Below are positions 1 to 34,349 of a stretch of DNA of 64,000 nucleotides, one piece after another. Origin of the DNA: Isoetes taiwanensis (lineage: Eukaryota > Streptophyta > Lycopodiopsida > Isoetales > Isoetaceae); NCBI GenBank assembly GCA_021234155.1, contig JAJEKV010000104.1, forward strand, positions 2,839,985-2,903,984. Reading direction: 5' to 3'. The notes below the pieces were generated by a model, which did not search any database, had not been told where the DNA came from, and saw only the letters and a program-made list of their open reading frames with translations. The number at the start of each line of letters is the position of its first letter. The stretch's first letter is position 1. Position numbers and translations under genes: made by a program.

Positions 1-195
1 TATTGCATTCACTTCCACATGAAAGTCCATCTGAAGATTTGGTTGCTCTTATGATGCTTCTTTTAAACATTATGTCATATTTTGTATCTACTGTACAACT
101 CTGCCTTTAAGTCATAACTAATGGGGATGTTTCTACACCCATTAGTGACACTATGTATGGTTTTTATTAATTAATGGAAAAAACAATCTTAACTT

Positions 196-217
196 AAAAA
201 AAAAAAAAAAAAAAAAA
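196..217 (+). repeat. A22 tract at start of the copy A 5' exon
   Basis: A pure A run lies directly before the Ser/Pro-rich 5' exon or leader of the DUF7869-like gene. Copy B has the same arrangement (A26 at 60706-60731). The position could mark an old retroposed junction or the 3' tail of a short element inserted before the gene. Confidence 0.7.
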
Positions 218-2484
218 GCTCGTCTAGTTCTGAGGAAACGCTTGGGAACAACGTCTTTTCTTCTGAAGACCGGCATTCTCCGACTCCTACCTCTACTTCA
301 TCGTTGTTGCTTCTCGAAGACACTTCGAGTCCAGCACTTAACAGACTTCCACCACCCTTCCAACCGTCACCAAGTCCGATTAGGCGATTACTGCTGGCAT
401 CTCCTTCAAAGCATCACCACCGGTTGAACATCTTTGCCACCACCCCTTCGTTCCATCCCGGACCTACGGATGCTCCACCACAGCGGGTGCTCAAGAACAA
501 GCTACCTCCCCTCCCCTCCCCCCCCCCCGTTTGTAGTTTTCGCCCCCTTCATGCAAACATACAAGGAACCTGAAAAGCGAGAGAAGGCGTGAGATTCACT
601 ACAATTTCTCTCACGGGACTTCACTACAAATGAGGGCGATCTTTGCGGCATGTACTCCTCTTCACCTAACAGTTGTGACACATGGATTTCTTGAGAATTC
701 CAGTCGGCTCTAAAAGAGATGTTTGCAAGAACTCCTTTTCGGGGATGGTACAAGAACGGTGATGCCACAACCTCTTATGGGCCATCACCATCCTTTAACA
801 ACGTGCTACGCCTTTTAGGGAACAACTTCGCGTGGTCTATTTTCCTCTACAAACACATCACTTTCGGAATGAGGAGGAAGTCACCCCTAGAGTAGAGGTT
901 TCATGGAAGATAAAGACACCAACGAGGAACAAGCGAGATTACATGTTCTCGACCAATCTTCAAAAGAAATTCAAAGTGGATTTTTGGTTTGAGAGCAGCT
1001 CCTCTGTAAGAAGAAGAAACCTTATAGATGAACACAAAATGAGAAGACTCGAGAACTAAATCTTTGCTCATTGGGTTGCATCAAGCAGATTTAACATGGC
1101 CAAATTACGGCGGTTAGAGACAACTTCTGGATCAATGATATTGGCGGACGAATGCCTACTTAGCTTATCATGTAAGACCGGACCCCGCAACACCGTCTTG
1201 CATTACATTTAACCGTGAACAAGTCTTAAAAAAATGCTTCATGGTTGTCCACCGTTTAGGGTCCCACAAGAATGTCTCGAATACACAAAAGGCTGGACAA
1301 AAACCCGGCAATTGATGATCAGCGTGGTCCAAGAAGAGTTGTAACCATGCATGCCCAGGCTGCTTTGTTACATGGATGGAGAAATATTTTAGAGACATGT
1401 GAGAAGTTGCCTAATAGCAACATGTATCATCTCTGGAGACAATATTACAAAAAAAGGCGTCTTCAAAAGAATACAAAGAGACATGCATTCAATTTCAGCA
1501 CATCTCTTACTCACACTTCACGCAATTTGTGGAAAAGTGAATTTGGCCTTGTGAAAATTCAAGGAGACATAGAATGTCTGTTTTGCTCAAGATGTGCGAG
1601 AATTAAAAGTCAACGAAGCGCAAAAGAGAGATCGAAAGAAGTAAGCTCATGTCCTCCATCCTCTCACTTGCTTTGAAGAAAATATTTTAACCTGATTTCT
1701 TTTTCACGGATATTGTGCAATGAGAATCTTGCGGAACATCGTGAACAACAGCGTGAGAGAGAAGAAAGCTTCGTAAACCTGAAAAAAAAGCTCTCGAGCG
1801 TCCATTGCAATATATGTCTATTGTAATTGATGGAATGGAAAAAAAACAACTCTACCCCATTTCCTAAATATTCCAAAAGATGTGCGGAGGAATGTTTTTG
1901 TTAAAGTCCACCTTGTAGGAGCCATGGTCTTTAAAGGAAGTCTAAAGTGCAAAGTATTTTTGGCGTATCAAACTTGCATGGTGACCCAAACACGACAATT
2001 ACAATCCTTAACAAGGTCTTGTGCGAGCAAGAGCAACTACCACCGTGCTCTACTTGCAACTTGACAACACTACAAGAGAACAAGAATCAAACACTCTTTG
2101 CTTATTGTGCTATGCTAGTGGAGCTAAGGATCTTGAGAGAAAAGTAAAAGCTTCGGATTTTTTCTTGTAGGGCACCCCATGATCCAGGATTGACCCGGAT
2201 GTTCAGCCAGTTTTAAATTGCGCCTTAGAAGGAAGGAAGCTTTTTGTCTTCCTACTTTAGTTCGAATCATTGAAGATTCTTACACTCCTATTCGGTGGTC
2301 AAGCTTCTTAAAAGGCTACTTGAGACTTTAGAGTTTGTTTTTCCTCAGCGTTCGGATAGAGAACTAGCTGTGAACAAGTTGAATGATCTTACCTTTCAAC
2401 ATCACATCAAGTTCTACTTGAAGGATGGACAAAGCTTCTTACAAGGGAAGAAGTACACCACAACTAAGGACTGGAGTCTAGCAG

Positions 2485-3300
2485 ATGGGTTGCACTTCCT
2501 TAAATTTATTCGGACCATTTGCGGTGAGAAGAAAAAGTACCCCATTGACATCCTTAAAAGCCATTGAAAATGGCATTTCCTCGGGCTTCAAGTACTTCTC
2601 AGAAGAAGATCAAGTGTGGTGGACAAATTTCTTTCTTGACCAGAAAGATGTCTTGGAAAATCTAGCTCTAAGACAGTTGCAAGAACCGTTTCAATGGCCT
2701 GATACATTCCATCAACCCCAGAACCAAATAGGTCCAAGCAATGCTACATTAGCACCTGCAGCAAAGGAAGACGAGGACCGAGTCATGTACCTTGGACCAA
2801 GACGTAGGAATGAGCCTCAAGGCAATATCATAGAAATTGCCAAAGGTATGCTGATTGCTCTTCCAACTGAGGAAGATGACAAAGGTCGACTCTTTTGGAT
2901 AGCAAAAGTTCTTGATACAGTCAAGGAGGAAGGCTTAGTAACTAAACTCAAGATTCACTGGCTGGCGACACGTTCAGAAAATGCTTTTGAAGGTAGGTAT
3001 GAATTAGAAATGAGAAGTCAAGGAAAAGGGAGGAAGTCTAAGAAAGTGGGTTGTAGGGATGAGCTGAACTTGAGTGATGTGACTATATTATGCTATGATT
3101 TCAAATTGAAATCAGACAATCGTCTGCGCCAGAAAACTATCAATTTGCTTAAAAAGGCTTGTAATTACGAGGAAGAGGATGAAGAAGGGAGTGGTGGTGG
3201 CAATGCTTCACCATCTGTTGATAGTGACGAGGAAGACAACTCAAGCACTTCTTCGAGTGACAGTGAAAGAAGTGAAGGAGATGAGGAGTGGCATAAATGA
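2485..3300 (+). CDS. Intact C-terminal exon of DUF7869-like gene, copy A
   Basis: This is a 271-codon open stretch, the longest uninterrupted coding block of copy A. The first residues up to about 2560 are out of frame with the gene; the true protein joins from the frame at 2295-2560, which carries KLNDLTFQHHIKFYLKDGQS. The body holds FKYFSEEDQVWWTNFF, LGPRRRNEPQGNIIEIAKGM and FWIAKVL, and ends in an acidic Ser/Glu tail (EEEDEEGSGGGN...) before TGA. Most of it is base-for-base identical to copy B at 63050-63800, except for a few clustered differences. The tail suggests a nuclear, chromatin-facing protein, but that is inference. Confidence 0.6.
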   Translation: MGCTSLNLFGPFAVRRKSTPLTSLKAIENGISSGFKYFSEEDQVWWTNFFLDQKDVLENLALRQLQEPFQWPDTFHQPQNQIGPSNATLAPAAKEDEDRVMYLGPRRRNEPQGNIIEIAKGMLIALPTEEDDKGRLFWIAKVLDTVKEEGLVTKLKIHWLATRSENAFEGRYELEMRSQGKGRKSKKVGCRDELNLSDVTILCYDFKLKSDNRLRQKTINLLKKACNYEEEDEEGSGGGNASPSVDSDEEDNSSTSSSDSERSEGDEEWHK

Positions 3301-3929
3301 ACATGATGACGTCCTGGATCCCTCCTTCATCACTCCTCACACTTTTGCACATAACTGGGTCTTAGAAAAAGACTGTACATTTTGCATGTGAATATGAAGA
3401 TTTTTTCTTCAAATTTTGAGAATACTACAGTATCAGTTACAGACTTTACTTCAATTTTTTGTTAAATATTTTATCCTTTGAAATTAAAGAGTTTCTCTCT
3501 AAAAATATACTTCAAGAACATTCTATTTGCTAAGAAAAGTGTCACTTTAAAAAAGTCAATTCTTTCGTTCCACAAAAAAACTAGTCATTTGGGGGGGAGG
3601 GAGGGGGGGAGGGGTCAAAATTGAATTTTATGCAACTTTTTTTTTACCTCATTTTACCCCCTTTTTGTAAAAAAAAAAAGAAATCTTTAAGGAATGTTCC
3701 TTTTGCTCTCGTTTCGATGTGTTGCAAAATCAACAATCAAGATTGAGAGAGATGTATTCAGCACTTATGCAAACTTTTTCTTTTTGAAGGACGAAAGCCA
3801 AAAAGTTTATTAACCAGATAAAAAATACAAACTTTACATGTCTCATCTAACTGTGTAAGCACAAAAAGATGCCACAGGAGCACGAGCCTGGAGCACAATG
3901 TACTTACTCCAGAATAAGAGCCTAACGAT
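3301..3929. other. 3' flank and low-complexity DNA, no gene seen
   Basis: 3301-3490 is the 3' flank of copy A and is shared with copy B (63809-64000). It is followed by a G-rich tract (about 3592-3617), a T run and an A run (about 3670-3680). I see no coding signal. Confidence 0.6.
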
Positions 3930-9570: not shown

Positions 9571-9703
9571 AGATCCTCTGTGTGTGTGTGTGTGTGTGCG
9601 CCACTTCATATCATAGCAAAACATAACAAAACATAGCATGTAAATGCATAAGTTTGGATACGTTATGTTTTGCTAAGTTTGTGTGTGTGTGCCACTTCAT
9701 ATC
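9571..9703. repeat. (GT)n-bearing target site of element 1
   Basis: Short TG tracts (about 9580-9600 and 9681-9690) are interleaved with the phrase GCCACTTCATATC and a CATAGCAAAACATAAC-type sequence. The last five bases, ATATC (9699-9703), are repeated directly after element 1, so this is the left flank of the insertion. Confidence 0.75.
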
Positions 9704-11331
9704 TGTGACGGTCCAAGGGAATATACGCCATAAATACGTATATTCCTGGATCCGTCACCATACAAGTCTATCTTTATAGCCTTGTATACCATAGATTGTG
9801 GCACTAGGGGGCATGGCTAAGTTATTCTCATAACTTAGCCAACCATAGGTTAAGCCATTATCCACATGGCCTTAACCTATTGGGTGCCGCCACCTGAGGA
9901 CTCACCCAGATTGGTGCCGCGTGGCATCCTAGGTGGACCCTAACTTATATAGGCATAAACCCTAACCTAGACCTCTTTCCGGCCCCTAGCACCCGAGAGA
10001 CTCACCTACTTGTTTGAAACCCGTTTGAACATGGATTCGTTAATGGCATAGGCTGCAGTGCGGCAATGGCCGAGGGGTGGGCCCGTTCTTGGAGGAGGAA
10101 CAGCGGCTTGTGAGTCGAAGACTATGGAAGCCGGATCACGGAGGGAGGCGTCGGGAAGCGGTATGTAGGATAGTAGTTGTGATAGCTCATGCGGGATTAG
10201 CATTCGGATGTGCTAGTATTTTTTATCTAGAGTAGAGCCATCCTAGAACCCATATTCAACATCTTGAACCCTAATCAAGGAACCCTAACTATTGGTTAGT
10301 TGTATGATTAGGTTAAGATGTTCTTCTTATAATTATTCTCATGATGTGATGATTATGTGATGTTGGTTGATCATGTTTGCTCCTCTTGTATTGGGAAGGG
10401 GGTGCTTGAGAGACCTAGGGCCATATGTAGTATGTTCTAGAGTAGATCCCTTAGTTCCTATTAGTTGCGGCTTTTGTGCATAGGAGCCCACCCGGGCTAT
10501 TGAGGCTATGATATGACTCAGCACCCGGATACTTGAGGGCTAGAGGGAAAGTGGAGGAGGATCCTGTAGTGGGGGAGGGGGGATCCCATAGTGGGCTAGG
10601 CTTATGGTGGGTCGCCGTGTGGGCGAGGCATGGGAGAGAAGCACCTCTCGGGGCAATGGTGTTGCCACGCCTCGGGAGGCTGCAAGTGTTGGCTTGGCTC
10701 TTTCGTTTTGGGGGTTGGTCAGTGCGAATCGTGTGTCGTCGCGATTCTCTAGCCATACGGCACCTCTAGACCACAGGAAGGGGAGATGCAACCCTTCTGC
10801 CTCATCGGACAGGAGATGCAGCACAGGTAGTCGATGGGTGATGCCATGGGATTGCGTATCCAGGAAGGCTAGAGTCTGTCGAGCCTGATCTAGCCCATCT
10901 GCAAAGTATGCACGGAGAGGCGGATGGAGTGGTCAACCCTAGCCATTGTTCTTTGCCAGCCCTGCGCCATTGTCATGACTTCGGTGCGCTCTATCTTGAG
11001 GCCCTAGCGGTTAGGTCATCCTCCTTATGAGTGCGAGCGGGGTAGAGGCTCTACATTTTATGGTTTGTGATTATCATCTTTGCATTGGTTTTTAATGCGA
11101 TGCACTACCCTCAGGTAGTATTTGTATATGTTTTATGCTAGTTACGGCGTGTTATAAACTTCATTTGTTATAGGAGCCCATGGGGAAGGCCAAGACACAA
11201 CCGTGTTCCCTCCCCGCACTAAAGTCACCTCGAGTGCGGGGGTAGGCGAAGAACCCATCGCGATTCTTGTGGGATGGGGATTTCTGGGGAATTATCTCGG
11301 TGGGCCCCGTATGTTTAGGGAGGGCGTCACA
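9704..11331 (+). repeat. 5' LTR of element 1
   Basis: A 1,628-bp LTR starting TGTGACGGTCC and ending GGGCGTCACA, so its outermost bases (TGTGAC/GTCACA) are inverted repeats. It is paired with 21053-22673. A TATATAGG-type box lies near 9945 and the U3/R boundary probably just after it. Confidence 0.9.
9944..9953 (+). promoter_or_regulatory. TATA box of the 5' LTR
   Basis: CTTATATAGG lies about 240 bases into the LTR and is conserved in the 3' LTR near 21292. In plant LTRs this position marks U3 transcription start about 30 bases downstream. Confidence 0.5.
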
Positions 11332-11332
11332 A

Positions 11333-11343
11333 TGGTATCGAGC
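11333..11343 (+). promoter_or_regulatory. Primer binding site (initiator Met tRNA)
   Basis: TGGTATCGAGC starts two bases after the LTR end and matches the TGGTATCAGAGC complement of plant initiator tRNA-Met except for one small indel. It primes minus-strand synthesis. Element 2 has TGGTATCAGGC at the same place. Confidence 0.8.
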
Positions 11344-11809
11344 AATGTTCTTGGTTGACCAAGAACTAGCATGACCATAACCATGAAAGTAGTCTAACAG
11401 GCCTATAGGGGTGTGAAATAAACATTTCCACCATCGAACCCATGAAATGGGGAAAAATTTTTTCTCCTAGGTAGTGGAGTGGGACTTAGGTTAAATGTTA
11501 GATGAAGGTCACGGCGAGTCAAACGCACCTTCTAGTAAATTTGGAGTGAAAATCATGCATCGCATCAAATTTCACCTAAAATGTAAAGAAGAATCATGCC
11601 GGAGACCAGGTGAAAAAAAGCATAAATTCATTGATTGCACTTGAACCATTAGAAAAATTCGAAATTCAAGTATAATATCAATTAATATAGGTTTAATATA
11701 TTTTAAAAAATTAAATAACTATTAAATAGGATGTAATTAATAAGGGGGGCTAATAAATGGGGGTATTATGGTAGGAGAATATTCTCGGGGACCCTCCTCT
11801 TTAAATATC

Positions 11810-11818
11810 TCGACACCT
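11810..11818 (+). promoter_or_regulatory. TATA-like box upstream of the H3-like gene
   Basis: TTTAAATAT lies about 80 bases before the ATG at 11897, followed by a C/T-rich leader. Element 2 has TTTAAATAT at 34255-34263 at the same distance with the same kind of leader. Conservation and spacing suggest a gene-internal promoter independent of the LTR; this is inference. Confidence 0.45.
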
Positions 11819-11896
11819 CATTTTTTCCCTCAAACTTTCCTCCACCTTCTCTCTCTTGACCAGCCTATCCCCACCCGTTTTCCTGAACCGTTAAGT

Positions 11897-12881
11897 ATGG
11901 CAAGAACCAAACAAACCTCTGAGGGAAGCCGGGAGACGGCCCCACACTTTCGATGGCGAACCTAGCGGCGGGGCGCCATGTGAAAAGATCGGGAGCACCT
12001 CAGGCCAAGAAGGGGAAGAGGGCTTCCCCTACCGGCGGCGGCGGCGGCACCTATCACGATGCGAGAGCAGCCCTTCGTCGGCGAAGGGGCCCACAAAGAA
12101 GCCAGCGAAAGGAAGGAAAGCGATCCGCAACGGTGGACCCCGCCAAAAGAAGAAGAACAAGCCAAAGGAGCGCAAGGAGAAGAGGAGAAAGCCTTGAGGA
12201 GGAGGAGCACAAGCGGCGGGAAGCGAGGCGAAAAGAAGAAACAGCGGTCCCGCCGGGCCGTGTGATAGAAAGGAAACACTCCGGCAGGAGAACCTGGAAG
12301 AAGAGAGCAGGAGGAAGAAGATGAGCGAGGGGGAAGAGGCGGACCGGAGCCACCTTACGGTGTGGCCCAAGCCACTAAGGTGGTAAAGAAGCGGCGGTGG
12401 CGGGCCTTAGCCCTTGAAGAGGACCGTCTCTCTACGGCCCGCCTCAAAGGCATACCAAGAATACCAGCCGTCGGTGGACAAAGGTATAATGATTGGTACT
12501 TCTGGGCAAAGCGTCGGCCTTACTTGAGTGGAGGGGAGGCGCCAAAAAGAACCAGACCCAAGCGCGCCGCCCGGCCCAGAAGAAAGAAGGTCCACCATGG
12601 GCCCTAATCCGGTACCTCCACGTGTCTTCGGGAGATTAGACACTTTCAGCGGTGCACTAATCTCGATTAGGAAGGCACCTTTTGGCGACTCATCGCGGGG
12701 AGGTGATCGGCGATTCGTCCGCAGGCTTCTGGTGGCGTCGCTCACAACTTCGAGTGTTACAAGTAGCGCTGAGGCGAGCTCACCAGTTGTTTGAGGGAAG
12801 GGAACCCTCGCGATCCGCGAAGGGTGACTTTGATACTTAAGGATATATACTTGGCGTCGCATCCGCAAGGAATACCCTTGA
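11897..12881 (+). CDS. Histone H3-like (CENH3-like) protein carried by element 1, frame broken
   Basis: The start reads MARTKQTSEGS; its first seven residues equal those of histone H3. A long Lys/Arg/Glu-rich tail follows (to about 12580) in shifting frames. The core then appears in order: KKVHHGP (12584-12604), the position of H3 KKPHRYRPG; LREIRHFQRCTNL (12626-12664), the alphaN/alpha1 start; IRKAPF (about 12668-12685); an acidic-helix remnant with QLFEG (about 12785-12800); RRVTLILKDIYLA (12818-12856); and RRIRKEYP followed by TGA (12855-12881), the position of H3 RRIRGERA. Order and spacing match the histone fold. HFQ and TNL resemble CENH3 more than H3. At least four frame changes and one in-frame stop are present; several may be sequence errors. 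The tail (about 230 residues) is far longer than in H3. Confidence 0.8.
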
Positions 12882-13533
12882 GGATGCATTTTTTGTCAAA
12901 GTAATGTAATTATTAAGTCTCCCATAAATATAAAATTTTTGTTGTAAAGTGACTTCAATTTTTGTATAAAAATGTGTTTGGGTTGCTCAAATTCTAGTTT
13001 AGTTGTAGCCATCATGGTGTAAGCATCCAAATAGAATAATTTAGTAAAAGTACTATAGGCAAATTAGTCAAATTTAGGCCAAAATAGCCGAAATCGGAAG
13101 AAATGTCTTGAAAATAGCCTTTCAGCCCTTGACGGAAAGCCCAAATTAGCATAGCTATCGGTTTTCGCCATGTTTGCCAGATTTTGCCAAATTAGCCCAA
13201 GTAAACATCAAATTAGGTTAGAAAATCCTAATTAAGCATCTTTGGGACCTTCAAATTTCCCAAAGCTGTTAATAGAAGCGCTTAAGCGGCCGAAATCGGA
13301 AGGGTGTGCGAAAATAGCCTTTCATGGCCGGAAGCCCAAATTCGCATAACCACCGGTTTTCGTCCGTTTTGCCTAAATTACCAATTTTCACCCAACAAAC
13401 CGCCATGTAGTATTTCTTGCTTTGCTTTGTCTAGAATTGCACTTCATGGTAGCTCATTTGGACACCGAGGGGCCATAGATTTGGAGTCTTCCCCATCAAG
13501 AACCTTTTTGTTACCGGAACGGGGCACCCTAGT
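12882..13533. other. Spacer between the two extra genes of element 1
   Basis: AT-rich DNA with phrases like CAAATTAGCC and CCGAAATCGGAAG repeated loosely (13090 and 13290). No coding frame is supported. It ends in the TATA box of the next gene and so probably contains its upstream region. Confidence 0.5.
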
Positions 13534-13544
13534 CTATAAAAGGG
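13534..13544 (+). promoter_or_regulatory. TATA box of the second extra gene
   Basis: CTATAAAAGGG followed by CCCTCATTTGTCA lies about 115 bases before ATG 13651. The same block is conserved at 36128-36138 and, with one A lost, at 44983-44992. It is a strong plant TATA match inside a retrotransposon. Confidence 0.6.
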
Positions 13545-13650
13545 CCCTCATTTGTCATTTTCTCCCCATCGAGAACTGCTCCTAGCTCTCTTGGCGATTT
13601 TCTAGCTCCTTGCTTATTCTCTTTAGCCATTTTCATACTCCTTTGGCTCA

Positions 13651-15156
13651 ATGGCACCATCAAGCTTTGTCGGATGGTACAATGGGGCAAATCACATCGT
13701 GCATTCCTGTGAGCAAGCCTTCCATGTCTTGATCATCACTTTGACCTTCATGCCACCTTGACTAGAACTCCCTACTACGACATAATTTGCCGGTATGATC
13801 AGTGGTCTTACCACAGGAAGTTAGCTTGCCACCTAGGGAGGGAAATGGGTTTCTCTAGATTCTCTTGCTCAAGCCATAGGTGGGGATCGGGGGCAAGAAT
13901 AAGTTATGGGATAGAACCCGAAACATGCGGACTACATGACTGTAAGCATCATAGGCGCCGAGTGCGTCTCAAACCAAGCAGCCTTAGCTTTGTTCATGCG
14001 ATGCAGGCGGTTAACCAACCCGGAGAGCCGTCAATTCAACCTTTGGATTTGGCACCTCTCGACACTTTCGGGCGCTGAGATAAGCATCCGGAGATCCGGA
14101 CCCCGGCATCACGAACACTCGGCTCCACATCGAGAGACAAGCGTGTGGCGAGAGGAAGCGGGGATTATGAGGAGGAAGAAGAGGAGAACCCAAGTTGGGA
14201 GATAAAGGCGAGGGAAGGATGGAGAAGCCTAGCTGGAACAACGAGGAAGCAATGGCGAGACTTGAGCCACCAAGGGGGTATCCACGAGCCTCACTCCGGT
14301 GATCGAGGGTGAGGAGTACATATTAGCCAGCGACATCCTCAACCTCCCCTATTGTCAAAGAAGAAGGCCACCGGGACCGGCGAACTCCTAAGCCCTAATG
14401 GCAAAGGGCTTGAGGGCGGCGACTTCATCGACTATGATTATCAAGAAATTCCAAGGGAGGTGGGTGGCGACACTCTATCGCGGGGATACTATGTCAGACA
14501 TTCAAGCCTACCACGGATAAAGGCGGATGTACCAGCGGCGGCAACCCATCATCGAAGAGGAATTCGGGAGATACAAAAGCCCGAGGTTGTACAAGCCGGG
14601 GAAGGCCCAAGCTCAAAGCCCGAGCCGGTCGCTCTAGAAGCATCGCGGGGAAGCACACAGTAGCATCAATCTGGAACAGCGGCAACAATGTGGAGGGACC
14701 ACGAAGATCTCGTCGCACTAGATGTTTTCGGTGAAATTTGCTCGGAGGAGAAGTGCACGAGGCTGCGGTGAGGCAGGGATAAGTCACTTAGGTACTATCT
14801 CCCGGTCCTTAGCGAGGCGAGATGGTAGTTCTTCACAAGGAGTTCAGCCCAAGAGGGGAAGAATCCGTCGGCGCTCTGTCGCACTCTCGGGGTTCGGTCG
14901 GCCGCAGCTAAGATGGATTATGGGTAGACCATGTCATCCTCTTCAAAGAGATCAGTAGCACTTCGCGCTCTTGACCCATGAGGGGGCCACCTCGGGGGCG
15001 CGCTTGTCGATGGTGGCGGCAAGCGCACGGAGAACTCCGGCCCGCGGTAGCAAAAACATTGGAGGGGGAGGATCGGCGGCTAGAATCTGCCGAGAACATG
15101 GGCAGGGAGCCACGGGATTCAAGAAAATCAAGGACTTCTTCAAGCGACACCATTGA
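13651..15156 (+). CDS. Second extra gene of element 1, unknown protein, frame broken
   Basis: The ATG lies downstream of a TATA box. Conserved stretches with the copies at 36243 and 45097 include SRTPYYHGYH-like residues (here TRTPYYDI), LGREMG, ALALFM, EEYILASDILN-like residues (14309-14345), DFIDYDYQEIPREV (14424-14465), VVLHKEF-like residues near 14825 and a C-terminus reading KIKDFFKRHH before TGA at 15154. I recognise no family. It sits between the H3-like gene and gag, is in the same direction and has its own TATA box. An alternative is an extra gag-like or accessory protein. Frame shifts are frequent. Confidence 0.5.
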
Positions 15157-15366
15157 TGGAAGAGTTGTTTGCTAAGCAATTAAAGTACATTGTAACTCCT
15201 TTTTAAGTATTATCATGAAGTCCATTAAATGTATTTCTATATACTAATTAATGTATTACTATGATGTTGACTTGTAAAAAGAAATTTTCATATGATTTCT
15301 TTTGTACCTAACAACAATTTAATTGTAAGCAAAAATGATCATTGCCTAACCTAATAACATGTATTA
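15157..15366. other. AT-rich spacer before gag
   Basis: About 210 bases of AT-rich DNA (with TTTTAAGTATTATCATG and ATTTCTTTTGTACC phrases) are conserved at 37780-37975 and 46640-46835. No coding frame. It separates the second extra gene from gag and may hold transcription end and start signals. Confidence 0.5.
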
Positions 15367-16665
15367 ATGATCAATCCTTGCGACAAGGAACTCAAGTCAC
15401 GGGGATCTCAAGATCAGCCACCGACCACGCAATTGGGTACCAAGGAATCTGTTTGGGAGAACAAAGAAGATGTGGGCAGGATATGTCACGGAGGCGATCA
15501 GCGCAAGGTTGGTGCGAGATGAGGAATCGGATGCAACACCTCCTCATCCCCAGGCGACACCTCTCATGAATGCTGGGGAAGATGGTCACCCACCTCCACC
15601 TTGTTTTTCAGGGTGGTGGCCGAAGTCCCTCGGCCCGAGGGAAGGGAGGGCAACCCAGGGAACGTCGGGGGATAGAAGAAGGAAGAGGAGAACCAGGAGT
15701 CCATCATCATCAAGCTCCGGCTCATGGGGCTGACTCTTCCGGTGAGGACAGCTCTAGCTCAGATAGTGACTCACAGCACACCTAAGGCAAGGAAAAGGGC
15801 AAAGAAAAAGGCAGGGATGATTACGAGAAAAAGGTGGATAGTGCTATGAGCAATGTGTGGAAGACAAGGAAAGGCTGGGCGGTTCTCGGGGAAAGAGCAG
15901 ATCGGGCATGGAAGCTAAAGCATGGCTTGATGAAATGGAAAAGAATTTGGTAACTCTTACGGTATGAAAGACAAGGATATAGGGAAAGTTGCTACGGCTA
16001 ACCTTATTGGACCGGCAAGGATCTGGTGGAAGGGATATGCTAAGTCTAACAAATTTTGAAGAGGAACAATTGCAGATTTAAGACTTTTAGCAAGGCTTAA
16101 AGTAAGCACTATGTACCAGGTCCCATACTAGTAGGCAGAGATCGGTGAGTTTCTGAGGTTGAATCGGGGTAGCTTATCCGGTGGCTAAGTATGCGAAGAA
16201 TTCCTTGAGACTTAGACTTCATGGGGAATTATCGAGAAAAGGCAAGCAGTGGACACCTATATTGAGGGTTGAGCAGCCAATATCAAGAGGCTTGTTAGAA
16301 CAATCAACCCAAGGTCCGATTCTTGGGCGAAGATAAAGCTATAAGTTTGGAAGAAGCACCAACAACTCAGTGAGCGATCAACCAGGGGGTAAGAGTGCGA
16401 GGCGATGTCGGGGACAATACCAAGGTAAGCAATCAGTGGCTACACCATCGAGGAGTCAGCGACAAGGTAAGGGTCAGAACAAAGCTTTTGGGGACCGTAA
16501 GCCCACGAGAATGCATCGGGGCGGTGCTCTCAAAGCGTCTTCTAGGCAGTCTGCTTAGAAGGAAAAGAGGCGGGGAATGCATTGAGAAAAGTTATGCTTG
16601 GAGGTGCTTCCGGCGAGGGCACGAACACATGATTGTCCATTAGTCATGCGAGTCAGCCTTGGCGG
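15367..16665 (+). pseudogene. gag: gag of element 1
   Basis: The ATG at 15367 opens a frame starting MINPCDKEL; this is also the start preserved in element 2. Further on, ATRIWWKGYAKSN-like residues (about 16010-16045), EFYRLN-like and LHGELSRKG-like stretches, and NIKRLVRTINP-like residues match the Retrotrans_gag capsid region. A broken CCHC zinc knuckle lies at 16575-16645; element 2 has the same knuckle at 39195-39250. The protein would coat the RNA in cytoplasmic particles. Several shifts break it. Confidence 0.7.
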
Positions 16666-16779
16666 AGAACTCTTGGATTAGGACTCCCCATGAGAAGCCG
16701 GGCGGGGCGATGACCAGCGAGGCCGGGACTTCATAGATGGTGAGTGTCACATATGTGCAAACATTGGAGTCGGATGATA

Positions 16780-16890
16780 TAGAGAATCAGATCAAGCTGT
16801 CATCGCTGGCTGATGGGATCATAGATAGTAATCCTTATGTAGTCCTCATAGATCTGAGGAAGCTCTCATAATTTTGCATCTCCTAGATTG
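16780..16890 (+). pseudogene. Retroviral-type aspartic protease of element 1
   Basis: The frame reads NPYVVLID followed by a damaged TGSS and SHNFAS. The intact counterpart in element 2 has DTGSSHNF, the catalytic Asp-Thr-Gly of the pepsin-like retroelement protease. The Thr-Gly pair is altered here by an indel cluster, which may be a sequence error. The enzyme would process the polyprotein. Confidence 0.6.
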
Positions 16891-17329
16891 GGCTGCTCTA
16901 ATGAAGAACAAAGTATTGAAGTCTAAGCCAAGGCGATGTAGCTATGGCAAATGGCCATTCGGCACACTAAGGGAGGAGGATCACCTTTGACATAGACCTT
17001 AGTGGGGCTAAGTGGCCGATGGGGGGCGAAGTCATGGACATGGAAGATATGATCGATAGTGGGAATGGAATTTTTGAAGCCAGCCAAAGCCATGATTGAT
17101 TGCGGCCGGAATGAAGTCACCATGGCGACACCGGGGCGGCACCAAGTTGGTAGTGAAAGGTAAAAGCTAGATTCTCCTATGCGGTGTATTTCTTTGAAGC
17201 GACTAAGGAAAGAGTATAGAAAGGAATAAGGTGGATTACATCTTGAGGATGGAATCGAGTTGAGCGAAGCAAGCGGGATGGAAGTGACACAAAGGGAAAT
17301 CATTTACCCAGGCGGATGCAAGGCTTATT

Positions 17330-18600
17330 TGAGTTCAAGGATGTATTTCGGATGAAATCCGGCATTTACTCCTATAGGGGTGTGGAATGTGAGATCACAT
17401 TGGCTCGGGATCTGAAGCCTACGATGAAGCCATATAGAATGAGCATCCAGGGGTGGTGAGCTCAAGAAGCAGCTGCGGGAACTTTCGAGCTTGGATTTAT
17501 AAGAGCAAGTGTGTCTCCTTTCCGGAGCACCTATACTCTTTGTCAAGAAGAAAGATGGGAGCTTAAGAATGTGCATAGACTATCGCCCGACTCAATAAGC
17601 GGGGCGATAAAGAATAAGTATGCATTCTTAGAGGCGGAGATGACCTAATGGATCAGCTACAAGGAGCAAAGGTATTCTCTAAGATTGATTTGAGATCGAG
17701 GATACCATCGGATAAGAATAAAAGAAGAGGACATCCATAAAATTTGCTTTGAGCAGCGGTATGGTCATTTTGAGTTCTGATAATGCCCTTTGGATTGTCG
17801 AGCGCTCCATAACATTTATCGCCTTATGAGCGACATCTTGAGACTTCTTGGATGAATTTGTTATTGTCTTCTTGACGACATCCTAATCTACAGACAAGTC
17901 CCTTGAAGAGCATTGTCGACATCTCGGGGAAAGTGTTGGAGAAGTTGAGGCGTCATCGGTTGTATGGGAAGCTCTCTAAGTGCCACTTTACCTTGGTAGG
18001 GTGGAGTACTTGGGGCATGTAGTAACATCAGAGGAATCTCCCGAGATCCATCTAAGATTGAAGCAATAGTTGATTGGCCAGCCCCAAGGAATGTAGCGAA
18101 GTAAGCTTTCTCGGGTTGGCGGGATACTCTGAGAAAGTTCGTGAAGGACTTTGCTAAGTGGGCGTCCCCTACATGGGGGACCTCACTAAGGCCAAGAAGA
18201 TTAAGGATTGGGCTAGCCATTGGCTAGAAAGTCCAAGCTTCTTTTGAGAAGCTTAAAGAGGCCTTGCTGTGACACCGGTGCTTGTTCTCCCCGGATCAGT
18301 AAGGATAAGTTGGTAGCAAGAGATGCAAGCAAGATAGCAGGGGCAGTCTTGATGCAAGAAGGAAGGGTAGTCGCCCTACGACTCAAAGAAGATGAGCGGC
18401 CGCCAGAACAGCTACCCAACCCATGATGGGAGCTGCTAGCCATTGCCGGGGCATTGAGGATATGGAGGCATTATCTACTTTGGGAAGGAAGTTTCAGTTG
18501 GATCTTTGATCACGAGCCTTGGTATCTTTTCACCCGACCCACTCCTCAACTTAAAGGCAAAGGAGGTGGATGGAATTCCTTGAGGAATATGATTTTGATA
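17330..18600 (+). pseudogene. pol: Reverse transcriptase and RNase H of element 1
   Basis: Readable blocks are YRGVECEITLA (about 17378), [11 protein letters not shown]-like residues, [18 protein letters not shown] (17530-17585), YGHFEF, PFGLSSAP-like residues and the catalytic FLDDILIY with one missing base (17866-17892). RNase H follows with DASKIAGAVLMQEGRV (18322-18370) and SYPTHDGELLAI-like residues near 18410. The order RT then RNase H then integrase is that of Ty3/gypsy. More than ten shifts are present. Confidence 0.85.
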
Positions 18601-18859
18601 TTATATATAAGCTGGTAAGCTTAATGTTGTACTTGAGATGCCCTCTCAGGGAGACCATTTGGGACAAGGGCGCATTGTAATGCGATTTCCCTCTTCAGTG
18701 AGTTTGGCAAGAAGATTGAGAGTCCTTGCCAGCCGATGTGGACTTCAAGGAGGTGTGGGAAAGCCTCTCGGGGAAGCGAGCGAGATAAGGGGCGGGAAGC
18801 CTTCAAGCATTTTAAGAAGGAAGGCAACTTTGTTGTACCACAAGCATAAGTTGTGTGTG

Positions 18860-19500
18860 CCAGAATCTTAGGGGGTAAGGAAGTTAATTCTTCATGACAC
18901 ACATAACAGCCCAATAAGCGGGGGCATGCGGGCTTCATGAAGACCTATTTCAAGATTGAAGTAGTTACCGGCGAGGGAATGAAGAAGGCGGATAGCTGCA
19001 TATATTCGGGATTGCGGTTATGTCGTGAGACCAAAGCGGAACAAACCGGATTAGGGTGCTTTAGAGCCATTGGGGGTGCCAAATGCAAAGTGGGAGGTCA
19101 TAAGCATGGATTTCATCACGGGACTCTCTAGAACTCTTGAGGCAAGGATGCATTGATGGTTGTCGTAGATAAGTTATCTAAGATGGCACATTTAAATTGC
19201 CTTGCAAGGCAACAGACACCGCATTAGACAACTTTGCCAAGTTATTTGTAAGGAGATTTTTTAGACTCCATGGCATGCCTCGGGGAGATAATATCGATAG
19301 AGATTCTAAGTTCATGAGTGCCTTTTGGCGGGGATCTCTTTAGCACCATCGAGACGAAGCTCTCCATGAGCGGCATATCATCCCCAAGCAGGATGGCGGG
19401 CGGAAAGGACCAATCGGATCATTGAAGACATGCTTGTAGCTATGTGTGGAACAAAGCGGTCAAGTGGGATGAGTACATTCACTTGGTGGAATTGCGCCTA
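18860..19500 (+). pseudogene. Integrase of element 1
   Basis: The zinc-binding start reads HDTHNSPI...AGFMKTYFKIE (18892-18960) with a later Cys pair. The catalytic core holds MDFITGL (first Asp, about 19107), LMVVVDKLSKMAHL (19152-19195), a damaged SDRDSKFMSAF (second Asp, about 19300) and the RTNRIIEDML segment with its Glu nearby (about 19405). This is the D,D-35-E layout of the Ty3/gypsy integrase. It would insert the cDNA in the nucleus. Confidence 0.85.
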
Positions 19501-19745
19501 CAAGCGATTGCCAAAGCGAGGAGTCATCTCGGATGTCTCCTTTTTATGGTGGTCAGGGTGCCGGTGCTTAACCAGGATACGGCACAATCATTGTCCAAGG
19601 TAGAAGTGTCAGCGAATGTTAGGGGATATCACGGCGACTAGTAGGAAGTAAGGGGTTATTTATTGGCAGCAAAAGTCGGTGAAGAAAAGTGTAGCCCGAC
19701 AAGCCCGGGACCGTAAGGGGAGTTTAAGGTGGCGATACCGTTTGG

Positions 19746-20145
19746 TTGAAGATCAAGGTGAAGCAAGCCAAGGCTGCGGTTGGGGGCTGCAAGAAGCTGC
19801 CCCTAGGTGGGGCTGGACCATTCAAGATTTTGGAGAGAGTGGGCTCTCAAGCCTACAAGTTGGATCTTCAGCCCATCTTAAGGTCCCACAAGGTCTTCCA
19901 CGTAAGTTTATTAAAAAGGCACAATCCTAACCACGAGGAGGTTTTGGATACTCCAACCTTGTTGGAAATGGCGGAGGAGCAAGTAGAAATAGTGCTGAGT
20001 TACTTCTTGATAAGTCATTCAAGAAGACTAGGAGGTCTCAGTTCCTCAATATTTGGTTAAGTGGAAGCACTTGCCGTGGAAGATGCGACATGGGTATTGA
20101 AGCAAGATTTGGAGAAGCAATACCCGGAGTTTATGAAGGAGTTTG
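19746..20145 (+). pseudogene. Integrase C-terminus with chromodomain, element 1
   Basis: LKIKVKQAK, GPFKILERVGSQAYKLDL and KVFHVSLLKRHNPNHEE form the usual GPF/Y region. Then EMAEEQVEIV (19968-19996), PQYLVKWKHLP (20045-20075) and EDATWVLKQDLEKQYPEF (about 20078-20132) form a chromodomain with the VKWK tryptophan. Chromodomains in these elements steer integration to chromatin carrying histone marks. The first cage aromatic is not evident, as in group II chromodomains. It is split by two shifts. Confidence 0.8.
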
Positions 20146-20149
20146 ATGG

Positions 20150-21042
20150 GCGAGTCGTCTGGAGCTTGGTGGAGCCCGACTTGCCGGTGGTTAGCTAGTA
20201 TGTTGTTAGTTAACTTTGAGCACGCATGCATTCTAGTTAGGAGGGTGCATGTGCGGAACCTTGGATCGTGTGGGCGATGATGGGATGCCTTTAGGGCATT
20301 CTCTGAAGCCACCGCGCACCGGGGAAGAATGCGCATGACCATTAGGGTCATGTGAGTGAGAATGAGGCATGGTGGGTGATGATGGGACATCGATCGGATG
20401 ATCTCTATGCCCACGATGCGAGAATGCCTTACACCTGGCAGTAGGAGGGTCATGGTGAAGCTTAAGTGATCATCTTGTGATGATGGGATCGTGAGGCGTT
20501 CCCTAGCTGAAACCCTCGGGGCATGATGCTTGGGGTGTACTCGATCCGGGGGATCGTGTACAAAGGTAGCACTTCGATCATGGGCAATGATGGGGCATCT
20601 TAAATGATCCTAAGCTCAAATCGAAGGGCCATGATCTTGGGCAAGGTAGTAGGACAACCTTGAGCCCGGTGGTTCGGCTCAAGGAGGTAAAGAGGTGGTC
20701 CCCTAAAACCACAAATTATTAACTAAACTAGCGTAATGTGCTCCTTTTTGCGGGCAAGTAGAAGGAGGACTTCAGCGAGGAGGCGTTACGAGAAGATCGG
20801 GGAGCCATAATTAGATTATGAACCCTAATAACTCTTATAATAGTATTTTGAATTATTATAAGAAATAGCGATGTTAAGGCTATATAATTTTGTATAAGTA
20901 CAAATATGGCCTAAAATTTTTGACTTGAACTAATAAAACTTGATTGCTAAACTAAACTAAAGATTATGACATGTTGTTGATATGTTGCGGGCATAAGGTA
21001 GGTTCGTCACCTTAAGCGCAATCTTGAGGACGACATTGTCCT
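20150..21042. other. 3' non-coding region of element 1
   Basis: No coding frame. GATGATGGG(A/C)-type phrases recur (about 20276, 20377, 20479, 20587), alternating with CATGATC words. The same layout occurs in element 2 (42810-43160). The 3' part is AT-rich and ends at the polypurine tract. Confidence 0.5.
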
Positions 21043-21052
21043 AAGGGGAGAA
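21043..21052 (+). promoter_or_regulatory. Polypurine tract
   Basis: AAGGGGAGAA abuts the 3' LTR and is the expected plus-strand primer. Element 2 has AAGGGGGGAGAA at 43541-43552. Confidence 0.8.
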
Positions 21053-22673
21053 TGTGGCGGTCCAAGGGAATATCGCCATAAATACGTATATTCTGGATCA
21101 AATCACCATACAAATCTATCTTTATAGCCTTGTATACCATAGATTTGTGGCACTAGGGGCATGGCTAAGTTATTCTCATAACTTAGCCAACCATAGGATT
21201 AAGCCATTATCCACATGGCCTTAACCTATTGGGGGCCACCCGCCACAGGACTCACCGATTGGTGCCACGTGGCATCCTAGGTCGACCTAACTTATATAGG
21301 CATAAACCCTAACCCTAGACCTCTTTCGGCCCTAGCACCCGGAGACTCACCTACTTGTTTGAAACCCCGTTTGAACATGTTCGTTAATGGCATAGGCTGG
21401 TGCAGCGGCTGTGAGGGGTAGACCCGTTCTTGGAGGAGGAGCGGCGGCTTGTGAGTGGTGAAGACTATGGGCGCTTGGGATCTGGAGGGAGGCGTCGGGG
21501 AGCGGGTATGTAGGATAGTAGTTGTGATAGCTCATGCGGGATTAGCATTCGGATGTGCTAGTATTTTGTATCTAGAGTAGAGCCATCCTAGAACCCATAT
21601 TCAACATCTTGAACCCTAATCAAAGAACCCTAACTATTGGTTAGTTGTATGATTAGGTTAAGATGTTCTTCTTATGATTATTCTCATGATGTGATGATTA
21701 TGTGATGTTGGTTGATCATGTTTGCTCCTCTTGTATTGGGAAGGGGGTGAGACCTAGGGCCATATGTAGTATGTTCCTAGAGTAGATCCCTTAGTTCCTA
21801 TTAGTTGCGGCCTGTGCATAGGAGCCCACCCCGGGCTATTGAGGCTATGATATGACTCAGCACCCGGATAACAGGGCTAGAGGGAAAGTGGGAGGAGGAT
21901 CCTGTAGAGTGGGGAGCTTGGGGGATCCCATAGTGGGCTAGGCTTATGGTGGTCACGCCCGTGTGGGCGAGCATGGGTGGAAACACCTCACAGGGCAATG
22001 GTGTTGCCCTGCCTCGGGGGCTGCAAGTGTTGGCTTGGCTCGTTTTGGGGGGTTCGGTCAGTGAAATGGGTGTGTGCCGTCACGATTCTCTAGCCGCCAC
22101 GGCACCTCTAGACCACAGGAAGGGAGATGCAACCCTTCTGCCTCACCGGACGGGGAGATGCAACACTGGAGTAGTCCCAGATGGGTGATGCCATGGGATT
22201 GTGTATCAGGAAGGCTAGAGTCTGTCGAGCCTGATCTAGCCCATGCAGCAAAGTATGCACGGGGGGGGGCGGATGGAGTGGTCAACCCTAGCCATTGTTC
22301 TTTGCCGACCGCCGCCATTGTCATGACTCGGTGCGCTCTATCTTGAGGCCTAGCCGGGTCGGTCATCCTCCTTATGGTGCGGCGAGGGAGTAGGAGCTCT
22401 CTCTGTTTTATGGTTTGTGATTATCATCTTTGCATTGGTTTTATGCGATGCACTACCCTCGAGTAGTATTTGTATATGTTTTATGCTAGTTCGGCGTGTT
22501 ATCGCTTCCCATTTGTTATAGGAGCCCATAGGGGGAAGGGCGCATAAAGACACAACCGTGTTCCCTCCCGCACTAGAGTCACCTCGAGTGGGGGGTGGGC
22601 GAAGCCCATCACGGGGTTGCTGAGCGGATGGGGGAGATTATCTGGCTGGGGGTATGTTGCGGGGGGCGTCACA
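21053..22673 (+). repeat. 3' LTR of element 1
   Basis: A 1,621-bp LTR from TGTGGCGGTCC to GGCGTCACA, collinear with 9704-11331. Differences are mostly small indels in GC-rich words. Followed by ATATC, the target duplication. Confidence 0.9.
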
Positions 22674-22706
22674 ATATCATAACAAAACATAGCATGTAAA
22701 TGCATA

Positions 22707-25297: not shown

Positions 25298-26115
25298 GGA
25301 AGCATAAATAACACCAAAATTTTGTTCATAATCGTTGAAGATTTCAGCACCATGAGGAAAGATAGGCTGAAGCGGATATCTGTTGAAAACCGCGAAATCA
25401 TAAAGGTACCACTATTTGCGGATGCAACCAAGAGAAATTTCTAGCGACCTCGAACTTAATGAAATGAGAAAAAATATAACACACCTCTCTTTAAAGCTTG
25501 AAGAAGACTCCATAACCAACCTAACTTGATTTCACATCATGTGTTGGCGGTGCGAGAACTTACGACCAAGCTCTTTGAGGCCATCTTTGATCAAGATTGA
25601 TGGTATCTTACGGAGCTATCGTCTCTAAGCGATCACGGGGCCTTTTAACAATCTTGAAGACTTATCAAGAAGTTCCCATAAAATTTCAAAGATGGGAAAC
25701 CCACTGTGGAAGCATAAATAACACCTTAAAAAATTTTTGTTCATAATCGTTGAAGATTTCGGCACCATGAGGAAAGATAGAAGCTGACGGATATACATTT
25801 GAAGCCGAGAAATCATAAGGTACCACTATTTGCGGATGCAACCAAGAGAAATTTCTAGCAGCCTCAGAACTTAATTAAATGAGAAAAAATATTCCACACC
25901 TCTCTTTAAAAGCTTGAAGAAGACTCCATAACCAACCTAGCAGTTCACATCATGTGTTGGCGGTCGTGAGGGAACTTCTGACCCAGCTACTTTGAGGCCA
26001 TCTTGATCAAGATTGATGGTATCTTACGGAGCTATCGTCTCTAGCGATGGGGTCTTTTAACAATCTTGAAGACTTATCAAAAGTTCCCATAAAATTTCAA
26101 AGATGGGAAACCCTG
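25298..26115. repeat. Direct tandem duplication of about 410 bp
   Basis: 25298-25705 and 25709-26115 are two copies that both start GGAAGCATAAATAACACC and end with AAGATGGGAAACCC. Within each, plus-strand frames show LADATKRN-like and LEEDSITNL-like pieces, so the unit may derive from a gene exon. I do not recognise the family. Confidence 0.75.
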
Positions 26116-30446: not shown

Positions 30447-31523
30447 AGCGAAATTACCTTAGGGACCAAGTAACACGGTCATTTTTGCCTTGAAAAAAAC
30501 ATGAGCCCTCTACATGGCGAGTGATGCGCAGCCACCTCTTAGACCAATTGACTACGAACATGTTGGACATGAGCTACTTTGGCGCTTCTTGGAAAGGGGT
30601 AGTCTTACGCCCACGAAACTTGGTCTCGAGGGGGTAATGTCAGCGTTTTGAGTCCATTGGCGGTCGGTTCACAGTTCGGGTGGGAAAGTTGCCCGTCCGT
30701 GGCGGGGTTCTTTGGGAGAGGACCTTTGGGGGGTGCGCCTCGGGAAGGTTTTAAAGGTCCATCTTCGGCATCAACACCCTCCCTCTACGTGATGACATTG
30801 TGCAAGATTTTGGTCGAATCGACTAAGATATAGCCTCGAAATGTAAACCACGTGTGTGTTGCTAGGTTATTGAAGGGTTTACGTTATGGGGTCGAGTTTT
30901 AGTCGGTTGCACTTGGGACATGGTTGAAGCTGCAATTGAAAACATGAAGCAATAGGGCTGATGGAATGGGGTTTGGAGTTATCCTCCTCGGTGTGGCAAT
31001 TAGAAGTCAAGGCGCCTTTTGTTGCTTCACATTTTTCAAGCTGCGGCTTCTCGACCATGTGCCAAGTGCAACCGACTAAAACTCGACCCCCATAATGCAA
31101 ATCTTTCAATAACCTAGCAACACGGCAGGGTTTACATTTCGGAGGCCGTATCCTAGTCAGATTCGACCAGGATCTTGCACAATGTCATCATGTAGAGGGA
31201 GGGTGTTGATGCGGAAGGCGGACCCTTAAAACCTTAGGAGCGGTTAAGCCCCAAAGGTCCTCTCGAAGGCCTAGCCGCGGACGGGCAAATCTCCCACTCT
31301 AAAGCGTGGTGACTGCGCCAATGGACTCAAAATGTCGACTTTACCCTGGGGACCATGTTTCGTGGGCAGAAGACCACCCCTTCTCCAAGAAGCACCAAAG
31401 TAGCTCATGTCCAACATGTTCGTAGTCAATTGGCCTAGGAGATGGTTGCGGAATACCGCTATGTAGGGGTTCGTGTTTCTTTTGTTGCCAAAAATGACCA
31501 TGTAACTTAGTCCCTAGGGTAAT
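30447..31523. repeat. Compact inverted repeat with arms of about 510 bp
   Basis: The left arm (about 30447-30953) is matched in reverse complement by about 31014-31523, leaving a loop of about 60 bp. Shared words include CAATTGACTACGAACATG, ATGATGACATTGTGCAAG and TTGCTAGGTTATTGAA. The right arm has an open reverse-strand frame of 76 residues (31271-31501, TNMLDMSYFGASW...) that I do not recognise. The arms differ by many small changes. Confidence 0.8.
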
Positions 31524-31829
31524 TTAAGCCATTCGGGCGACATAGCGAAAGTCGAATCTCCATTCGAGCCTTTGTATGCTTGCCCGACGACAAAACACTT
31601 GGTTTTCTCAGCGGTCAACCCGCGGGGCGCTTGATGGTTTGATAATTTCTCGGGCCGGATCTTGGATTTTTTGAGCTGGCTGATTCAGCGGTCGGATAGG
31701 AATATTGAGCTCGGATTGGCATTTCCCTCCGGAGGAGGGCGCTAATAGGAAAGGCTGCCTCGACAACCTTTTCGAGGTTCATCTCTGGGAGTGCGGCCTC
31801 TCCCCTCACGGTGAAAGCTGCGCAAAGTC

Positions 31830-32185: not shown

Positions 32186-33772
32186 TGTGACGTTCCAGGG
32201 GAATATACGCCATAAATACGTATATTCCTGGACCCGTCACCATACAAGTCTACCTAGGTAGCCTTGTATGCCTTGGATAAGTGGCAAGGGGTGCACATCT
32301 AAGTTAATTATTTAACTTAGATAACCTTAGGATAAGGCCCATTTCCACATGGCCTTATCCTGTTGAACAACCACGGCCTTATCTTAGTGGTGCCCGTGGC
32401 ATCCCATGTGGACCCACACCTATATTAGCTCTAACCCTAACCCTAGACCCATTTCCTTGACCTAGCACCTGAACTCTCATCTACGTGCTCGAGAAACCCG
32501 TTTGAGCATGGTTCGATATAACCTAGCACGGGCGGCACCCACGGAAGGTGTGTAGGATCGTGGGGAGCAAGTCTTGAGCCACTCCAAGGAGCATGGAGGC
32601 GCCCGGGGATGGGAGGAAGCTTAGGAGCAGGTAGGTTGAGTAGAGTTCATATTAGTTCATGCGGGAGTTAGTACTCGGATGGGTTAGTATTCGTATTAGC
32701 TAGAGTAGAGCCACCCTAGAACACTGTGTTGAACATCTTGAACCCTAATCCGGGAACCCTAACTAATAGTTAGACATGTATGATTAGGTTAAGATGTTCA
32801 TATGAATGTTCATGATGATTATGTGATGATGGTTGATCTTGTGTTGGGAAGGGGTAGAGACCTAGAGCCATATGTAGTATGCTCTAGTGTAGATCCCTTA
32901 GTTCCTATTAGATGCGGCTTTGTGCATAGGAACCCAGGGCTATGGAAGCTATGATGTGACTCGGCACCACACAGCGGGGCTAGAGGCAAGATGGAGGTGG
33001 ATCCCTGCCCAGAAGTGGGGGCTTGGGGATCCCACGGTCGCTAGGCTTATGGTCGATCACTTAGGTGTGGGCGAGCATGGGTCCGAGCACCTCACAGGGG
33101 CAATGGTGTCAGCCCTGCCTCTCAAGAGTTGCAAGTGTCGGCTTGGCTCTTGTTTTGGGGGGTTGATCAGTGCAGTCGTGTGTCGCCCGCGATTCTCTAG
33201 CCGCCGTGGAGCCTCTAGACCCGGGAAGGGGAGATGCAACCCTTCCTACCTCGGCGGACGGGGAGATGCAACACTTTGGGTAGTCACGATGGGTGATGCC
33301 ATGGGATTGCGTGTCAGGAAGGTTAGAGTCATGCGGCTGATCTAGCCCATGCGCAAAGTATGCCGCAGGGAGGCGGATGGAGTGGTCAACCTAGCCATTA
33401 TCTTATGCCAGCCCGCCATTGTTATGACTCGGTGCGCTCTATCTTGAGGCCTATCGGTCGGTCGACCTCCTTATATGCCGGACCCACGGGTAGGAGCTCT
33501 CTGTTTTATGGTATGTGATTATGTTCTTTACACTTGTGGATATGGGATGGACTACCCTTGAGGTAGTATTTGTATTCTTGATGCTAGTTACGACATGTTT
33601 ATCGCTTCATTTGTTATAGGAGCCCATAGGGGAAGGGCCGCCAAGACACCTTCGTGTCCCCTCCCCGCACTAGGGTCACCTTAGAGTGCGGGGGTAGGCG
33701 AAGGAGGCCGGATGGGGGATTTCTGCCCAGTATCTGGCAGCGGCGGTATGCGTATGTTTGAGGGGCGTCACA
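32186..33772 (+). repeat. 5' LTR of element 2
   Basis: A 1,587-bp LTR from TGTGACGTTCC to GGGCGTCACA. It is alignable to the LTR of element 1 over its length but clearly diverged, so the two belong to different subfamilies. The primer site TGGTATCAGGC follows at 33774. Confidence 0.9.
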
Positions 33773-33773
33773 A

Positions 33774-33784
33774 TGGTATCAGGC
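33774..33784 (+). promoter_or_regulatory. Primer binding site of element 2
   Basis: TGGTATCAGGC, close to the initiator Met tRNA complement, begins two bases after the LTR. Confidence 0.75.
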
Positions 33785-34263: not shown

Positions 34264-34349
34264 CGACACCTCATTCTCTCTCTCCAACCTTTCCCCACCA
34301 CCACCTCCCTCTTGCTCACTTTCGTCATCCATTTCTTGAACCATAAGAT

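Follow-up and report, generated by a model that had tools for sequence, protein, structure and literature searches.

A broken histone H3-like gene at an equivalent place in two diverged Ty3/gypsy LTR retrotransposons of Isoetes taiwanensis

Mobile elements that carry a histone H3-like gene are known among fungal hAT DNA transposons, which have been described, in the available portions of the reports, from Pyrenophora (PMC3538342) and from Pseudocercospora and its relatives (PMC6710886). Plant LTR retrotransposons have been surveyed for extra open reading frames (ORFs), and the available portions of these surveys name other domains and no histone (PMC6317226, PMC7264820). The share of extra ORF proteins resembling a known domain is given in one of these partial texts as 21.4% (PMC6317226), and a review devoted to how plant transposable elements capture genes has, in its main text, no word beginning with "histone" (PMC13317346). 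Some of the domains gained by plant Ty3/gypsy elements act on RNA or DNA, as far as the available sections go (PMC6317226, PMC7264820, PMC9289625), and an AlkB-type RNA demethylase carried by an orchid Gypsy element is described in such a section as active in vitro, so that gained domains can be functional (PMC9289625). To the sequence-only reading of the present DNA, no described retrotransposon family was known to possess its own H3-type histone. This stands for the literature surveyed, namely titles and the beginnings of abstracts among the papers listed, with most subscription journals and preprints outside the scope, where an H3 gene was not found in any LTR retrotransposon; it has to be qualified by the H3-carrying hAT DNA transposons of fungi.

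The window, the whole stretch of 64,000 nucleotides that was analysed, contains two related elements, the features of which are all given here on the + strand. Element 1 (9704-22673) is a full-length Ty3/gypsy LTR retrotransposon with an H3-like gene, delimited by an LTR pair with TG...CA ends and flanked by an ATATC target duplication (9699-9703 and 22674-22678). Its 5' LTR occupies 9704-11331, where the repeat continues to GTCACA ahead of the primer site, while its 3' LTR occupies 21053-22673 and is directly preceded by a purine tract (21043-21052); the two LTRs show 9.9% mismatch over the 1522 columns compared (9703-11262). The primer binding site at 11333-11345, in direct reading, is of the TGGTATC... 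type, which we take to be initiator tRNA-Met-like. Element 2 (32186-48825, the right end being approximate) is a diverged relative, with about 22% mismatch to element 1 in LTR, leader and pol. The end of the 5' LTR at 33772 is followed by a primer site at 33774, a place matching that of element 1; the target duplication is not clean, and a 3.36-kb piece resembling the interior of element 2 interrupts the 3' LTR. This piece (44289-47646) has 89-90% identity to 35432-38814 of element 2 and opens with the final bases of the H3 gene.

Several other repeats occupy the window. A direct repeat of about 3.5 kb with 91% identity lies at its two ends (1-3493 and 60510-64000), and an ORF in the right-hand copy (62667-63053) matches DUF7869 (E 1.6e-06). 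A tandem duplication of about 405 bp (25298-25702 and 25708-26113, 89% identity) and an inverted repeat of about 500 bp with a short spacer (30451-30952 and 31022-31525, 82% identity) were also observed, and element 2 is followed by a short-unit repeat array (48828-50586) with inverted similarity to 53684-54321.

The pol type is Ty3/gypsy. In element 2, a reverse transcriptase piece (40453-40662; RVT_1, E=8.6e-07, 29.3 bits, just below the cut-off of 29.6) precedes the integrase, as in the Ty3/gypsy order, and the integrase is represented by a zinc-binding domain (41294-41515; Integrase_H2C2, E=3.2e-07, above cut-off), an rve match from 41629 (E 0.0028, 18.3 bits, below the cut-off of 32.6) and a C-terminal SH3_Tf2-1 domain (42303-42671; Pfam E=6.4e-15, above cut-off). 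Element 1 has the same C-terminal integrase domain (19728-20057; SH3_Tf2-1, Pfam E=3.5e-18) and, as a motif only, an LLDDI resembling a reverse transcriptase active site (17868-17882), to which the RVT_1 piece of element 2 corresponds. Retroelement Pfam matches were obtained from 6 of the 10 stop-free fragments of a first set, and retroelement domains were absent from 10 further stop-free fragments in the Pfam scan; gag was located by its position rather than by a domain match. A possible C-terminal part of a chromodomain directly follows the integrase in a single fragment of element 1 (20061-20195), as a weak match below the Pfam cut-off (Chromo, E=0.011, 16.0 bits, cut-off 25.1). The element had earlier been labelled a Ty3/gypsy chromovirus: the Ty3/gypsy part holds, with reverse transcriptase ahead of integrase, and the chromodomain part leans on this weak match. 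Both elements are most likely chromoviruses, possibly of a Tekay/Del-like clade judging from size. A hAT DNA transposon with an H3 gene, which would have a hAT transposase and terminal inverted repeats, does not fit the direct LTRs, the integrase and the reverse transcriptase.

The H3-like gene of element 1 extends over 11897-12881 and is broken; it consists of an ARTKQ start, a basic tail of about 230 residues and an H3 core (12617-12871). As the sequence-only reading had claimed, six H3 blocks are present there in the right order, distributed over two frames, with MARTKQT, KKVHH, LREIRHFQ and RRVTLILKDIYLA in one frame and IRKAPF and RRIRKEYP-stop in the next. A canonical H3 core was used as the query of a frameshift-aware local alignment, in which element 1 (12500-12950) scored 88, compared with a mean of 27.7, a standard deviation of 4.6 and a maximum of 48 in 200 dinucleotide shuffles. 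The same alignment revealed a second copy, absent from the earlier reading, in element 2 (34350-35454), likewise broken, with an ARTKQ start, a basic tail of about 260 residues and an H3 core (35141-35445) scoring 145 against a shuffle maximum of 39 (200 shuffles). This comparison is a fair test, as real and shuffled DNA were handled alike. When 424 windows from the two strands of the 64-kb sequence were scored, the H3 sites ranked first and second (145 and 88); among the best 12 of the 424, the third and fourth (52 and 51) overlap the same H3 genes and the best unrelated window reached 44. The negative controls H4 and H2A scored 30-41 on both H3 stretches, while ten H3-type proteins scored 58-165.

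Single-frame pieces of both copies produced no Pfam match (0 of 6), and a single-frame piece of element 1 reached at best E=0.03 in the PDB (H3.8). With the frames read through, element 2 matched Pfam Histone at 54.3 bits (E=2.1e-14; cut-off 26.4), and a profile of both copies matched H3 in the PDB at E 2.8e-25. The frameshift-tolerant check that had been proposed for element 1 itself gave 25.6 bits (E=1.6e-5), just under the cut-off of 26.4, so that the histone profile is borne out by element 2 and narrowly missed by element 1. Since Pfam significance appears only when the frame breaks are crossed, in frames that were picked by eye under the guidance of H3 and of the other copy, these E-values flatter the match. 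The single-frame failures and the abundance of small indels could be taken to mean that chance likeness or sequencing noise explains the H3 match, but both loci far exceed their 200 shuffles and the 424 control windows, and now that this test has detected a second copy, chance is no longer tenable; the probability left to this explanation is negligible. The H3-like gene in element 1 is thus confirmed as genuine, its block order lies beyond chance, and the claim that a Ty3/gypsy element carries an H3-fold gene is upheld, the gene lying within the mobile unit in two elements.

Neither copy has the intact reading frame of a histone H3 gene, each being interrupted by several frame breaks. The aligned cores contain 6 breaks in about 0.26 kb (element 1) and 7 in about 0.30 kb (element 2), exceeding the roughly 3-4 each expected at the LTR rate. 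Frame-breaking gaps occur at 24-28 per kb in the LTR pairs, which differ by 4-10% mismatch, and at 26 (LTR) and 22 (leader) per kb in the comparisons between the two elements, at 22% mismatch. Since this rate does not rise with age, the gaps look partly like sequencing noise, and since the rates are alike in LTR pairs and in older comparisons, the breaks need not predate insertion. The pattern suggests indel errors of unpolished long-read sequence, and the breaks, as noise or decay that is common in this DNA, are no strong argument against a gene.

In both elements the H3 gene lies at an equivalent place between the primer site and gag, directly downstream of homologous LTR and leader sequence. 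DNA similarity, assessed without regard to the code, amounts to 68% in a stretch of 266 nt that spans the start and reaches into the tail, and to 60% in another of 723 nt farther downstream; both copies have the ARTKQ start as well as PTLSMA and GRHVK in the tail (frames by eye). When the copies are aligned by codons from about 11971, 123 of the 284 aligned codons are identities; the first part of the tail is out of register in this alignment and is covered by a separate one. Two separate captures of H3 are excluded by the common start, tail and place, and a nested insertion in one copy is excluded by the homologous place of the gene in both elements.

The basic tail is very rich in lysine, arginine and glutamate and, to our knowledge, exceeds the tails of known H3 proteins in length. 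Since it is long and common to both copies, the H3-like gene is not a plain H3 copy. No Pfam match was found in the tail with the frames read through, and the tail with a short core piece had no match at E<=1 among 8000 candidates scored from 5.8 billion proteins. In a protein search with the profile of both copies, all 10 matches examined from the best 120 of 3038 have two or more H3 domains, and the tail was found in none of these 10; a genuine single-core relative may rank lower among the 3038. A search with the core only returned generic H3 and grass CENH3 in the 12 matches examined from the best 120 of 919, again with the tail found in none of the 12, and a pattern scan of IMG/VR gave 25 matching stretches, none of which encodes a relative. 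As a homologue of the tail was not found in the protein searches, no other genome supports the family.

Signals compatible with separate expression precede the gene. A TATA-like TTTAAATA lies at 11800-11807 in element 1, 97 nt ahead of the H3 start, and the same TTTAAATA lies at 34255 in element 2, 95 nt ahead of the start at 34350. From this box to the H3 start, ATG is absent in both elements; the 14 leader ATGs of element 1 and the 9 of element 2 are all upstream of the box. With so many leader ATGs, ribosomes that scan the full-length RNA are unlikely to translate H3, and the arrangement of the sequence looks like a private promoter for the H3 gene. The 200 nt past the H3 stop are 73% A+T in element 1 and 71% in element 2, and A+T-rich sequence is typical of many plant 3' UTRs. 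A scan with bacterial promoter and terminator models, which are unsuited to a eukaryote, gave background level.

These observations are probably best explained by a host gene of the H3 family that was captured by a chromovirus family and kept as an accessory gene for a chromatin protein. The accessory-gene reading is supported by the common place, start, tail and core in two diverged elements, inside their LTRs, and it is weakened by the fact that both copies are broken and that no intact copy was found in the 64-kb window. The divergence of the two elements bears on how long the gene has been kept. Mismatch between elements 1 and 2, about 22% in LTR, leader and pol, rises to 38% in the gag region and to 44-49% in the H3 gene. 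The H3 and gag module (11800-15800 versus 34255-38420) is thus about twice as diverged as LTR, leader and pol; it either entered in an already diverged form by recombination or evolved fast. Judging from this excess over LTR and pol, the gene predates the split of the two versions and is old in the family.

Selection was assessed through the differences between the two copies, in which the third-position bias is 1.54. The frameshift-aware aligner itself generates such a bias, and only the contrast with simulations was therefore counted. In neutral simulations of similar divergence (rate 0.45, giving 0.46 differences per site, against 0.48 observed), the bias was 1.33 +/- 0.09, none of 50 reached 1.54, and the read-through protein identity was 0.38 +/- 0.02 compared with 0.43 observed. 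At a rate of 0.40, which gives 0.41 differences per site, 5 of 50 simulations reached the observed bias and the protein identity equalled the observed 0.43; a first, smaller set (n=12) at 0.30 showed a bias of up to 1.58. The core alone has a bias of 1.65, inside the neutral range. In a code-blind alignment three-base periodicity is absent (H3 ORF z -0.2, core z 0.6), by a measure of such low power that pol attains just z 1.6. Overall, the H3 gene shows modest evidence of selective constraint.

The gene might instead be a passenger of no use to the element, having arisen by transduction of an H3 gene or as a processed pseudogene and being merely copied along. Plant LTR retrotransposons commonly capture genes, by the available portions of two sources (PMC13317346, PMC7264820), and a passenger would fit the broken state of both H3 copies as well as the weak selection test with its non-significant core. 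The start, tail and core are, however, still recognisable at about twice the LTR divergence, and the protein identity of 0.43 against the neutral 0.38 +/- 0.02, together with the bias that 0 of 50 simulations reached, points away from a useless sequence; a passenger is rather unlikely. Still less probable, and distinctly so, is a nucleocapsid-like packer of the RNA or cDNA of the element, built from a basic tail and a histone fold, instead of a chromatin component. The H3-like gene does adjoin the gag region, shares the diverged module with it and has a tail rich in K, R and E, but the best-kept parts are the C-terminal RVTL..KDI and the REI/RK.P motifs, and a protein that simply packs nucleic acid by its basic charge could do without these.

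The kind of H3 from which the gene derives can be narrowed less. The sequence-only reading leaned towards plant CENH3 on the residues HFQ and TNL; these are present, and a tree with H3 and CENH3 does not discriminate between the two groups. A source in CENH3 specifically, with a protein that steers the element to centromeric chromatin, is therefore put forward tentatively, as somewhat doubtful. HFQ, TNL(L) and RVTLM, plus RRIGG in element 2, occur as in plant CENH3, the Arabidopsis sequence having been used for the residue comparison. The best of 123 H3-type proteins for both copies is an H3-fold protein of Glomus cerebriforme (scores 124 and 171), which, with its long loop 1, is taken to be of CENP-A type, and three grass CENH3s with a MARTKH start rank 3, 10 and 13 of the 123. 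Grass CENH3s also give the top identity in the tree set (60% over 93 columns for element 2, 48% over 90 for element 1). CENH3 and CENP-A are distinguished by a loop 1 longer than that of canonical H3; loop 1 of element 1 seems longer, whereas that of element 2, with 17-18 residues, is near canonical H3.

Against such a source, both copies have the canonical IRK.P and not the IPFAPF of grass CENH3. In the core protein tree, elements 1 and 2 pair at 85/70; their branches are long and belong to neither group, and the tree program warns of long branches meeting at this node. Canonical plant H3 scores 88 against 70-85 for grass CENH3 in element 1 and 145 against 144-148 in element 2, while Arabidopsis CENH3 and human CENP-A are lower (58 and 80 in element 1, 103 and 102 in element 2). 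The best 60 of 173 PDB matches are canonical H3 and close variants.

For the accessory gene, we infer from the sequence the steps that go beyond its presence. A chromovirus family would have taken up a histone H3-family gene from its host, probably via RNA or from an intronless gene, since the H3 core is intronless, and would have kept it as an accessory between the primer site and gag. Its own promoter, formed by the TATA-like box and the short ATG-free leader, may give a separate H3 mRNA, and the H3-like protein may pair with host H4 through the H3 fold and join chromatin or coat the DNA of the element. The tail, with ARTKQ and the long lysine-, arginine- and glutamate-rich stretch, could mark chromatin or dock the integration complex, and its action would steer integration or silencing to the benefit of the element. 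The chromodomain of chromoviruses is regarded as a reader of histone marks. With an H3 variant of its own, possibly centromeric, and a chromodomain integrase, the family might set a chromatin mark private to it and later read that mark: the element would deposit its own histone, and the integrase would be drawn to such nucleosomes, or copies would be sheltered in them. The possible chromodomain of the same element makes this self-reading loop conceivable, at a low probability.

If the accessory-gene reading is true, an element with its own H3 could alter the chromatin that its chromodomain reads, and the family would offer an example from nature in which a core histone has evolved a new tail within a mobile element. 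Whether retrotransposons can put marks on the chromatin of their own copies could then be tested directly, and the finding would be relevant to the arms race over centromeric histones.

Elements 1 and 2 share with plant chromoviruses the order of reverse transcriptase and integrase, a possible chromodomain-like end and a tRNA-Met-like primer site, and differ from them in having an additional H3 gene downstream of the primer site and ahead of gag. Plant Ty3/gypsy elements with extra ORFs resemble them in a captured or extra ORF beside gag-pol, kept there in many copies, as the available sections describe it (PMC6317226, PMC7264820), while the orchid Gypsy element with a gained demethylase is, by the available portion of its description, Tat-like and not a chromovirus (PMC9289625). 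Giant DNA viruses likewise represent selfish genomes with their own core-histone genes, but, in the available parts of the reports, they are large DNA viruses with other histone sets and not retroelements (PMC11500106, PMC9145170). Fungal hAT elements, within the available portions of their descriptions, resemble elements 1 and 2 in that a transposable element carries and multiplies an H3-like gene; they are cut-and-paste transposons with terminal inverted repeats, whereas elements 1 and 2 are LTR retrotransposons, the histone of which has a long new tail and a fixed place before gag (PMC3538342, PMC6710886).
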